A stretch of DNA of 64,000 bases from Elusimicrobiota bacterium (GTDB lineage Bacteria; Elusimicrobiota; Elusimicrobia; UBA1565; UBA9628), in the NCBI GenBank assembly GCA_023249645.1, contig JAHFCF010000003.1, positions 62,001 through 126,000 on the forward strand. The letters are read 5' to 3'. Position 1 is the first letter of the stretch. Each line of letters begins with the position of its first letter. Below the pieces are notes generated by a model, which was not told the DNA's origin, ran no database searches, and worked only from the letters and a program-made list of their open reading frames with translations. Shown one piece after another: positions 13,327 through 46,629 of the stretch. The translations under genes and the position numbers were made by a program.

Positions 13327-13344
13327 ACTGTTGCCGGCAACAGT
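13327..13344. repeat. Palindrome ACTGTTGCCGGCAACAGT, copy 1
   Basis: Perfect 18-bp palindrome; same core at 40982-40999 and 46291-46308. Confidence 0.9.
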
Positions 13345-40651: not shown

Positions 40652-40702
40652 AAGGGAAGTGTAATCCCGGCTTCCATTTTTGTCAAGGGCAGGATCAGCG
40701 CA

Positions 40703-41062
40703 TGCCAGGAATTTTTTAAAATGCATACCCTGAAATGGAGGTTTTCAGCCCGACGGAGTCGGGATGAAAACCCCGGCACCGACACTCAGGTCGGTGCCGA
40801 GCCGTTGTTGTAGCCATCCCCTGAACCCACGCCATCTCTTACGCGCCTCGTGCGCGTAACTTCGTCCTGAAGCAAATACCCGTGTCAGGGCGAAGTTTCT
40901 CACAGACAAATTCGATGCTTTCAGAATTCCCTTGAAGCAGTATCGTGAACTGCAGGCATTTTTTGCTGCTTAATCTGATCAACTGTTGCCGGCAACAGTT
41001 GATCCAAAGAATTATGACTAATGCTCTTTAGGGGTATGCACTTTTAAAAAACGCCCAACAGC
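40703..41062 (+). ncRNA. Candidate structured intergenic element, copy 1
   Basis: Outer inverted repeat TTTTTTAAAATGCATACCC (40712-40730) / GGGTATGCAcTTTTAAAAAA (41032-41051); stems A (40740-40772), B (40774-40799), C (40839-40859), D (AACTTCGTCCTGA/TCAGGGCGAAGTT); flanked by direct repeat GCAGGATCAGCGCA (40689-40702, 41063-41076). Strand inferred. Confidence 0.5.
40977..41004. repeat. Palindrome copy 2, extended to 28 bp
   Basis: GATCAACTGTTGCCGGCAACAGTTGATC, perfect palindrome. Confidence 0.92.
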
Positions 41063-41068
41063 GCAGGA

Positions 41069-41332
41069 TCAGCGCAGCTCGAGGTTGAGGCGCAGGCTCA
41101 GGCCGCCGACCGAGGCGATGGTGACCCGGCCCATGAACATGCCGGCCAGACGGGCGAAGCGGTTGAGCGGGCTCGTCGAGCGCGGAACCTTCGCGAGGTC
41201 GGCCAGGCAGAGCGTCATCCCCGGCGTCTGCGGGCAGAGGGAGATGAAATCCTGCGCCGAGGCTCGACCGAGTCCGAGGGTCAGAAGGGCCAGGCTCAGC
41301 AGGGCGCTTGTGGTCCGCCGAGGAAACCGCAT
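41069..41332 (-). CDS. Small hypothetical secreted protein
   Basis: 87 aa with signal peptide MRFPRRTTSALLSLALLTLGLGRASAQ. Confidence 0.5.
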   Translation of the reverse strand: MRFPRRTTSALLSLALLTLGLGRASAQDFISLCPQTPGMTLCLADLAKVPRSTSPLNRFARLAGMFMGRVTIASVGGLSLRLNLELR

Positions 41333-44263: not shown

Positions 44264-46024
44264 ATGATCACGCTTCAGAACGTCACGAAATCCTTCGGGC
44301 AGCAGCTGCTCTTCGAAGGTGCCTGCCTGCAGATCAACGAGGGCGACCGCTACGTCCTCGTCGGCCCGAACGGCGCGGGAAAATCCACGCTTTTTAAGAT
44401 CCTCCTAGGCACGGAGGAGGCTGACGAGGGCAAGTTCTCGATCAAGCGCGGCTCGGTGGTGGGCTATCTGCCGCAGGAGAACGCGCCGGTGACCGAGGAC
44501 ACGGTCCTGGCAACGGCCCTGGCCCATCACGAGGACCCGGACGGCCGCCTCACAGCCAAGGCCAAGGCCATCCTCATGGGCCTGGGCTTCAAGGTGATCG
44601 ATTTTGAAAAAAAGCTCAATACGCTCAGCGGCGGCTGGGCCATGCGCGCGGCCATGGCCAAGCTCCTCATGCAGGAGCCGGACCTCCTGCTCTTGGATGA
44701 GCCGACCAACCATCTCGACATCGACGCGCTTTTCTGGCTGCAGAACTACCTGCAGTCCTACACGGGCGCCATCTTCCTCATCTCGCACGATCGGGCCTTC
44801 ATCAACGCGGTCAGCCGCGCCATCGTCAGCATCCAGGACCGCACGCTCAAGGTCTATCACGGCGACTACGAGTTCTACCAGCGCGAGCGCCAGGCGCAGA
44901 ACGATCGGCTGCTCTCGGCCTTCAAGCAGCAGCAAGTCGAGATCGCGGCCATGCAGGACTTCATCGACCGCAACCGCGCCCGCGTCTCGACGGCCAACCG
45001 CGCCCAGAGCATGATCAAGCGCTTGGAGAAGCTCGAGCGCGTCACCCTGCCGCAGGAAGCCAAGACGATCAGGATCCGATTCCCCCAGCCCACGCGCACC
45101 GGCGTGCGGGTCCTGGCCTTGAAGAACGCCAAAAAATCCTACGGGGACGTGAAAGTCTATGACGGCCTGAACTTCGAGCTTGAGCGCGGCTGGAAGGTGG
45201 CCTTCGTGGGCCACAACGGGGCGGGCAAATCCACGCTGCTCAAGATACTCGCCGGGGCCATCCCTCTGGACTCAGGCGAAAGATTCGTCAATCCCGAAGC
45301 ATCCGTGGGCTATTTCTCGCAGCACAGGGAAGGCCAGTTCAACCGGACCAAGACTGTGCTCGAGGAAGCCCAGAGTGTGGGACGAATGAACCCCGACCTC
45401 TTCACGCGCACGGTGCTGGGCACCTTCCTTTTTCCCGGAGACGCGGTCTACAAGCCCGTGAGCGTGCTCAGCGGCGGCGAGAAAAGCCGCCTGGCTTTGG
45501 TCAAGCTCCTGCTCGATCCTCCGAACGTTCTGCTCTTAGACGAGCCCACGACACACCTCGACATGGCCAGCGTCGACGCCTTAGTCGAGGCCCTGCGCGA
45601 TTTCGAGGGCACCATCTGCTGCATCAGCCACGACCTCTACTTCCTCAACGCCCTGGCCGACCATGTGGCGCACATCGAGAACGGGAAAGTGACGTGGTAT
45701 CCCGGCAACTACGAGTACTTCAAGAGCCGCCAGGCGCAGTGGCACGAGGACAATCCGGCAGCCGTCGAGGTACCCAAGGTGGAGAAGGCCAAGCACGCGG
45801 CGCCCAAGAAAGCCAGGCCGCAGGACAAGGGCAAGCTCGAGGCCGCGGTGCTCAAGCTCCACGCAGAACTCGAGGAACTCGCGGGCAAGCTCTCGGACCC
45901 GGCGCTCTACGAGGATTTCGCCAAGGTCCAGGAGATCGGCGAGAGGATGGAGGTCGTGCAGGCCGACATCCAGGCGAAGGAAGCGGAGCTGAGAATTCTG
46001 GGGACACCTTACTCAATTCAATAG
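44264..46024 (+). CDS. ABC-F family ATPase
   Basis: Two Walker A (GPNGAGKSTLFK, GHNGAGKSTLLK), two signature motifs (LSGGW, LSGGEKSR), DEPTNHLD and DEPTTHLD. Confidence 0.95.
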   Translation: MITLQNVTKSFGQQLLFEGACLQINEGDRYVLVGPNGAGKSTLFKILLGTEEADEGKFSIKRGSVVGYLPQENAPVTEDTVLATALAHHEDPDGRLTAKAKAILMGLGFKVIDFEKKLNTLSGGWAMRAAMAKLLMQEPDLLLLDEPTNHLDIDALFWLQNYLQSYTGAIFLISHDRAFINAVSRAIVSIQDRTLKVYHGDYEFYQRERQAQNDRLLSAFKQQQVEIAAMQDFIDRNRARVSTANRAQSMIKRLEKLERVTLPQEAKTIRIRFPQPTRTGVRVLALKNAKKSYGDVKVYDGLNFELERGWKVAFVGHNGAGKSTLLKILAGAIPLDSGERFVNPEASVGYFSQHREGQFNRTKTVLEEAQSVGRMNPDLFTRTVLGTFLFPGDAVYKPVSVLSGGEKSRLALVKLLLDPPNVLLLDEPTTHLDMASVDALVEALRDFEGTICCISHDLYFLNALADHVAHIENGKVTWYPGNYEYFKSRQAQWHEDNPAAVEVPKVEKAKHAAPKKARPQDKGKLEAAVLKLHAELEELAGKLSDPALYEDFAKVQEIGERMEVVQADIQAKEAELRILGTPYSIQ

Positions 46025-46093: not shown

Positions 46094-46130
46094 GCATATT
46101 TGTTGTGGTAAACTATAATGGTGCCTCCAG

Positions 46131-46517
46131 TTAACCTGAATTCTTCAGTTCAGCAGATCATCCGGCTCCGCGGCTGAAAAAAGAGATTATTTTTTTCGTC
46201 TCTTTTTCCATCTATTTCCAGCTGCGCTTCAGTTGGAAATTATGCAACCGAGCAACTCGGTATGCGCACCCAAACTGAAAATCAGGTCGAACTGTTGCCG
46301 GCAACAGTTGCTTGAAAATTTTTTTGAAGACCAAGCGAGGTTTACGCCCCGACAGCGAAGCTGGCGGGACGGAAACCCCGGCGCCGACTGTCCCGTCGGC
46401 GCCGAGGCCGCTGTTCACCCTACTGGTTGGATCAACAATCTCTTACGCTCTTCGGGAGCGTGATTCAGCGCGCAACAGCGCGCTGAATTCAAGCTTCAAC
46501 TGAACTTTTCAGGTTAA
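46131..46517 (+). ncRNA. Candidate structured intergenic element, copy 2
   Basis: Outer inverted repeat TTAACCTGAATTCTTCAGTT / AACTGAACTTTTCAGGTTAA; stems A (46339-46377), B (46379-46404), C (46443-46463), D (ATTCAGCGCGC/GCGCGCTGAAT) in the same order as copy 1; possible -10 TATAAT at 46114-46119. Confidence 0.5.
46290..46309. repeat. Palindrome copy 3 (20 bp)
   Basis: AACTGTTGCCGGCAACAGTT. Confidence 0.92.
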
Positions 46518-46629
46518 AGCATCTATTCGAGACATTTAACCGTCTTATCTGCGGACAGGTGTCTTATTTGAATCAATTATAACTGGATGCCAAGGTCAAA
46601 GAGATCGGCGAGAGGATTAAAGGCCTGAG

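Follow-up and report, generated by a model that had tools for sequence, protein, structure and literature searches.

A covarying five-hairpin cassette carried by an IS1380-type MITE in Elusimicrobiota

Results

Anatomy of the element at 46131–46517

The window analysed here is a 64,000-nucleotide stretch of contig JAHFCF010000003.1 from an Elusimicrobiota bacterium (genome G000). An element lacking a transposase gene is inserted in it at a TTAA site, between two convergent genes. Its features are as follows.

46131–46134, unstranded: left target-site duplication TTAA, identical to 46514–46517
46135–46513, plus strand: IS1380-type MITE, 379 bp, without a transposase gene; ends match an autonomous IS1380 element
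46135–46150, plus strand: left terminal inverted repeat
46290–46309, unstranded: perfect palindrome AACTGTTGCCGGCAACAGTT, a repeat separate from the cassette, about 20 times in the genome
46338–46489, plus strand: cassette A-B-E-C-D, about 150 nt, defined by aligned homologues
46339–46377, plus strand: hairpin A, the fastest-changing helix; double compensatory changes in 7 of 12 pairs
46379–46404, plus strand: hairpin B, CGGCGCCGAC-tgtccc-GTCGGCGCCG, 10 bp and a loop-closing pair (CG in 17 copies, GC in 10)
46412–46437, plus strand: hairpin E, weak; TGTT of the conserved tail pairs with a downstream AACA; 82% of cells paired, little covariation
46443–46463, plus strand: hairpin C, TTACGCTC-ttcgg-GAGCGTGA (TTACG..CGTGA); double changes in 3 of 7 pairs
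46464–46487, plus strand: hairpin D, TTCAGCGCGC-aaca-GCGCGCTGAA; double changes in 5 of 5 pairs, 78% paired
46498–46513, minus strand: right terminal inverted repeat
46514–46517, unstranded: right target-site duplication TTAA

The outer repeats, taken with the flanking bases (TTAACCTGAATTCTTCAGTT, 46131–46150; AACTGAACTTTTCAGGTTAA, 46498–46517), are 85% complementary. The terminal repeats proper (CCTGAATTCTTCAGTT...AACTGAACTTTTCAGG) match the ends at G002:C45:104695-106411, in a genome of the same genus as that of the window, and the CCTGAATTCTTCAGTT ends and their complement also bound other, AT-rich interiors (loci L021 and L025–L028). Identical 4-bp flanks, mostly YTAR, were present in 13 of the 17 elements having both ends, where a match to Y and R alone would leave about a quarter identical by chance. 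The exact flanks come in five versions (TTAA, TTAT, TTAG, CTAA and CTAG). Since they pair as direct repeats (TTAG/TTAG, CTAG/CTAG), the outermost bases belong to the target and form no paired stem.

Genome-wide counts for G000, a 2.27 Mb assembly of 38 contigs that is 93% complete, were drawn from searches and fetched stretches. About nine elements bounded by the terminal repeats were found in it. A DNA search returned long homologues of 46131–46517, full or partial, at four other sites (C15:3573, C19:48798, C2:53942 and C11:16456; E = 1e-31 to 4e-59), together with many short matches to both ends. The initial annotation had described the interval as the second copy of a structured element first seen at 40737–40897; the two are indeed homologous, but there are more than two copies.

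Close to where an ABC-F gene ends, a 29-bp sequence (45920–45948) recurs at 93% identity just past the MITE (46589–46617); the repeat looks like what is left of the 3′ end of another ABC-F gene.

An autonomous relative and its kin

The end pair in G002 (L070:2700-4408), about 1.71 kb apart, bounds a gene for a 445-aa transposase that scored 238 bits against the cut-off of 180 for NF033539, the NCBIfam IS1380 family, and also matched Pfam DDE_Tnp_1_4. This autonomous element is flanked by CTAG/CTAG. In a pattern search of related genomes the same IS1380-type ends recurred, 25 times in G058. We conclude that the 46131–46517 interval is almost certainly a non-autonomous IS1380-family transposon, or MITE, with its target duplication; it is not a free-standing RNA gene. 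An IS1380 transposase acting in trans would have mobilized it, and this mobilization would have spread the five-hairpin cassette inside it. No IS1380 transposase match was found at E ≤ 1e-10 in the G000 assembly, which suggests either that the MITE is now immobile or that its partner is missing from the assembly.

The G002 autonomous element carries the cassette between its left end and the transposase gene, directed away from that gene. Close IS1380 relatives in G010 and G013, with transposases 78% and 76% identical, have no cassette, and the cassette is thus a passenger.

Two further features of these elements were noted. An 11-bp inverted repeat (CCATCGTCTCG..CGAGACGATGG, L070:2885-2970) has the start codon of the G002 transposase within one of its arms, and a similar repeat occurs in G010 and G013; it may limit translation. 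In G058 (L215–L233) twelve or more short elements have IS1380-type ends, and no IS1380 transposase is among the matches listed.

Copy 1 lies in a different element

The other cassette of the window is enclosed by unrelated ends.

40712–40735, plus strand: left inverted repeat of the copy 1 element, unrelated to the IS1380 ends; pairs with 41027–41050 at 83%
40737–40897, plus strand: copy 1 of the cassette (R1 match of 81.7 bits, and alignment)
41027–41050, minus strand: right inverted repeat of the copy 1 element

These 24-nt inverted repeats lie between direct repeats at 40686–40702 and 41060–41076 (AGGGCAGGATCAGCGCA, 16 of 17 bp), and the left part of the whole element (40686–41076) is also present at L056. 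Copy 1 therefore sits in a second transposon-like element, different from the IS1380 MITE.

In the initial annotation the outer repeats of the two copies, alike in placement and different in sequence, had been taken as a covarying stem. This claim is withdrawn: they are the terminal repeats of two unrelated elements, and as they belong to two different transposon ends the difference between them is not covariation. A TATAAT box had likewise been proposed as the promoter of the element. The box exists, at 46114–46119, but it falls beyond the end of the MITE, in host sequence that is absent next to the other copies, and so is not the promoter of the element. An alternative in which the whole 387 nt is a single RNA, closed by the outer repeat and transcribed from this box, would account for a promoter scan that finds ATGGCA-17-TATAAT (10 of 12) and for a predicted fold that closes through the outer repeat. 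It can be given almost no credence, as the outer repeat, with its target duplication, is the end of a transposon and is shared by elements of other content; the promoter is within host flank, and the ends of copy 1 are unrelated.

Structure and covariation of the cassette

The hairpins, linker and outer inverted repeat of the initial annotation were all located in the sequence, with stem B and its tgtccc loop, stem C and its ttcgg loop, and a linker, AGGCCG...AATCTC, of 38 nt here and 39 nt in copy 1. The folding of 46131–46517 as RNA is far beyond chance (z = -8.9 against dinucleotide shuffles). The other strand gave -8.6, and as both strands fold about equally stably, folding energy does not tell the strand. 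Counts of G-U against A-C pairs, a test of the functional strand, were 33 to 16, and 7 to 15 once one pair was left out.

Covariation was scored on 28 copies of the A-B part, from nine genomes and one stray Elusimicrobiota-like contig, aligned with MAFFT without structure; the structure was read from these same sequences. Paired cells made up 94.5% of the alignment, and 11 pairs change on both sides with pairing kept. There were 64 double-compensated cells, compared with 17.8 ± 3.8 in shuffled alignments and at most 9 with partners slid. The covariation proposed from two copies thus holds with 28, the score being 0.279 where shuffled alignments gave 0.098 ± 0.010 and slid partners no more than 0.058. 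The slid control flatters the covariation somewhat because the structure was read from the aligned sequences. For the full cassette (11 copies) the score was 0.334, against 0.141 ± 0.015 shuffled.

The helices differ in how they vary. Helix A varies almost freely with its pairing kept; helix B is near invariant except for its loop-closing pair, which alternates between C-G and G-C; a T.G pair is conserved in hairpin C; and other copies have a different hairpin in place of D. Outside the helices the loop and the CCGTTGTT sequence are conserved. We conclude that the cassette is a structured module conserved in its own right, whose shape is kept while its sequence changes.

Palindromes can mutate in concerted fashion, and paired changes might in principle arise when the two arms of a hairpin undergo template switching or gene conversion, with no selection on structure; the recent common ancestry of many of the 41 copies in G003, which are closely related and not independent, is compatible with such an origin. 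We consider it very unlikely. The inner pair of helix A is a G-A mismatch in 36 of 69 copies, which arm correction would erase, and conservation extends to sequence outside the helices. Moreover, at two loci the module is common to G001 and G002 and absent from G004 and G006, and the orthologous copies differ in helix A with pairing kept, by one compensated pair in one case and by an almost complete rewrite in the other, while B and the tail stayed unchanged where helix A was rewritten.

Distribution and contexts of the A-B module

Searched with a covariance model of A-B, G003 has 41 copies, G002 and G005 have 8 apiece and G000 has 5, while other members of the family, order and class have few. 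Across the phylum the module occurred in 14 of 345 Elusimicrobiota genomes, at 1 to 41 copies, many of the loci lying on fragmented assemblies. Among the sequences searched it was confined to Elusimicrobiota. At the gathering score, Rfam gave no match in the window or in 12 related loci, the best weak match reaching 17.8 bits against 56.

Five contexts were seen. Besides the autonomous IS1380 element of G002 and the second transposon-like element with copy 1, the module occurs in IS1380-type MITEs, directly past the stop codons of host genes, and in the leaders of IS21-type elements from five genera (G047, G005, G032 and G227, and in degenerate form G168). The IS21-type elements have the order end repeats, A-B module, small Cys-rich ORF, ParB-like ORF, IstA, IstB, and the orientation of the cassette in them is the opposite of that in the autonomous IS1380 element. 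In the IS21-type element of L071 (G047:C173) the two extra ORFs before istA encode a 104-aa Cys-rich product, which has no Pfam or NCBIfam match, and a ParB-like product of 365 aa.

That three or more kinds of mobile element carry the module, and that both strands fold equally well, could mean that the hairpins act as DNA, whether as cruciforms or single-strand hairpins aiding transposition or replication, or as insertion targets beside which several element families come to lie. Such a role is quite unlikely. The near autonomous IS1380 relatives manage without the cassette; the IS21 copies occupy one fixed site, internal to the element and not beside it; and RAYT/Y1 transposase genes are without good flanking copies, save one match near a G004 gene.

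Several other identities were considered and set aside. Mobilization of the REP/RAYT kind was rejected, since Y1_Tnp genes occur in 13 of the 14 genomes searched and good module copies do not flank them (the G004 match, the only one above 30 bits, came from a search near 30 Y1_Tnp loci). Integron attC sites, suggested by the tandem spacing in G003, were dropped, as the inverted R-box arrangement is absent by eye. A phage or plasmid origin was rejected when neither blastn against phage and plasmid records nor an exact-pattern search of viral contigs returned the A-B module.

Two observations concern particular genomes. Scanning named genomes for the terminal-repeat pattern returned one Elusimicrobia record (L057) and three odd bins. 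Among the latter, a contig binned as Micrarchaeota (L056, JAHFEC010000120.1) bears an IS1380-type end and an A-B copy that closely resembles copy 1, and is probably mis-binned Elusimicrobiota DNA. In G003 (L061, L059, L067) a second repeated double-hairpin unit (CACCCCAACGG..CCGGCGCCCCC..GCGC..TTAACGGCA) alternates with A-B modules, and in some copies TATACT-like boxes lie between this unit and A-B.

Placement of the module and its possible role

Neighbouring genes were called with a simple codon-usage script. Where both neighbours were called, 25 of 46 A-B copies lay between convergent genes, and this 3′ bias may largely reflect the tolerance of insertions at such sites. Between co-directional genes 8 copies were sense and 7 antisense. 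A count of copies by whether the upstream gene was on the same strand (41 to 19) was dropped because both orientations score alike between convergent genes, and was replaced by a near-stop test. In that test, stand-alone copies at most 50 nt past a stop codon were sense in 12 cases and antisense in 2 (p = 0.013), a small count that is not wholly independent, since it includes orthologous pairs, and that uses crude gene calls and a loose terminal-repeat pattern. In the IS21-type elements the module precedes the first ORF and is oriented as incoming outside transcription would be.

From the near-stop bias and the IS21 placement, a transcription block is taken as the likeliest role. Hairpins A and B would fold once RNA polymerase had passed, and the conserved U-containing CCGUUGUU tail would follow B; the cassette would then terminate transcription arriving from upstream genes and protect IS21 operons against read-through. 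The CCGTTGTT tail is moderately U-rich, with a poor T-tract (it is U-richer in G013 L169), and a simple terminator scan of the plus strand did not call hairpins A–D. The reversed orientation of the cassette in the autonomous IS1380 element also speaks against this role. A mobile hairpin cluster serving as terminator or insulator is therefore a plausible but tentative proposal, drawn from placement.

The reading of the initial annotation, selection on RNA structure, stands in so far as the hairpins covary; conserved structure by itself does not make an RNA gene, and the placement fits a 3′ end or insulator at least as well. It is unlikely that mobile elements acquired the cassette as a true structured non-coding RNA, acting in trans or regulating in cis, whose hairpins are kept because it binds a protein or target, although it would suit the five ordered hairpins with their compensatory changes, the conservation of the loop and CCGTTGTT beyond the helices, the T.G pair kept in hairpin C, and possible -10 boxes (TATACT) seen by eye just behind A-B in several G003 copies. 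Its patchy occurrence and variable copy number are unlike those of one conserved gene, A-B is often present alone, no conserved promoter precedes A, and Rfam offers no match. The explanation that we find fairly probable overall is a MITE with an independently conserved, transcription-blocking passenger cassette.

Perfect loopless palindromes (AACTGTTGCCGGCAACAGTT, ACTGTGTCCGGACACAGT and TTTACCGCCAGCGCTGGCGGTAAA) were also observed between genes, at 46290–46309, 40977–41004 and 13327–13344 and at about 20 sites in the genome. Of 23 intergenic palindromes with known neighbours in the fetched loci, 22 lay between co-directional or convergent genes and one between divergent genes, as expected for terminators.

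Discussion

The MITE family is real and new, of a known kind, and carries a new structured cassette. MITEAba12 (PMC6382973) and the Coxiella MITEs (PMC5896051) are likewise short, multi-copy, without transposase, with ends shared with autonomous IS elements, and with target duplications. MITEAba12 is about 113 bp long; its predicted structure is weak, and no terminators are predicted in it (PMC6382973). Small RNAs have been linked to the Coxiella MITEs (PMC5896051). The element of the window differs from both in its IS1380-type ends, 4-bp duplications and covarying five-hairpin interior. The Correia/NEMIS repeats of Neisseria are also small and mobile and affect the expression of neighbours, and RNase III can bind or cleave CREE (PMC2649163); their ends and host are other, whereas the folded part of the present element is a cassette that can be separated from it and occurs in several element families. 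REP/REPIN sequences with RAYT transposases (PMC3116915) resemble it as repeated GC-rich intergenic hairpins, but here the Y1/RAYT genes are without good flanking cassette copies. Intrinsic (Rho-independent) terminators share the GC-rich hairpin and T-containing tail, and stand-alone copies near stops are mostly in sense orientation; the cassette differs in its poor T-tract, its two to five ordered hairpins, its conserved loop and tail, and its mobility. One group of the IS21 family has A-B in the leader before the first ORF, and the window element is no IS21 derivative.

MITEs that alter neighbouring transcripts are already known, for example the Coxiella MITEs (PMC5896051) and CREE (PMC2649163). 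No covarying multi-hairpin cassette common to IS1380, IS21 and host 3′ ends was found in Rfam or in searches of open-access literature, whose silence is weak evidence of novelty. It is possible, if doubtful, that the cassette represents an undescribed class of structured RNA in Elusimicrobiota, a five-hairpin module that ends transcription or regulates, and that moves between unrelated transposons and host 3′ ends. If so, mobile elements would distribute ready-made RNA 3′ ends through genomes. Compensatory changes are usually read as the signature of a functional RNA gene; here they occur within a mobile element, and its outermost 'stem' is only a transposon end. Should the cassette end or insulate transcription, it would be a concrete case in which regulatory 3′ ends are supplied by mobile DNA. 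The A-B covariance model provides a search tool for a largely uncultured phylum in which terminators and RNAs are hardly known.
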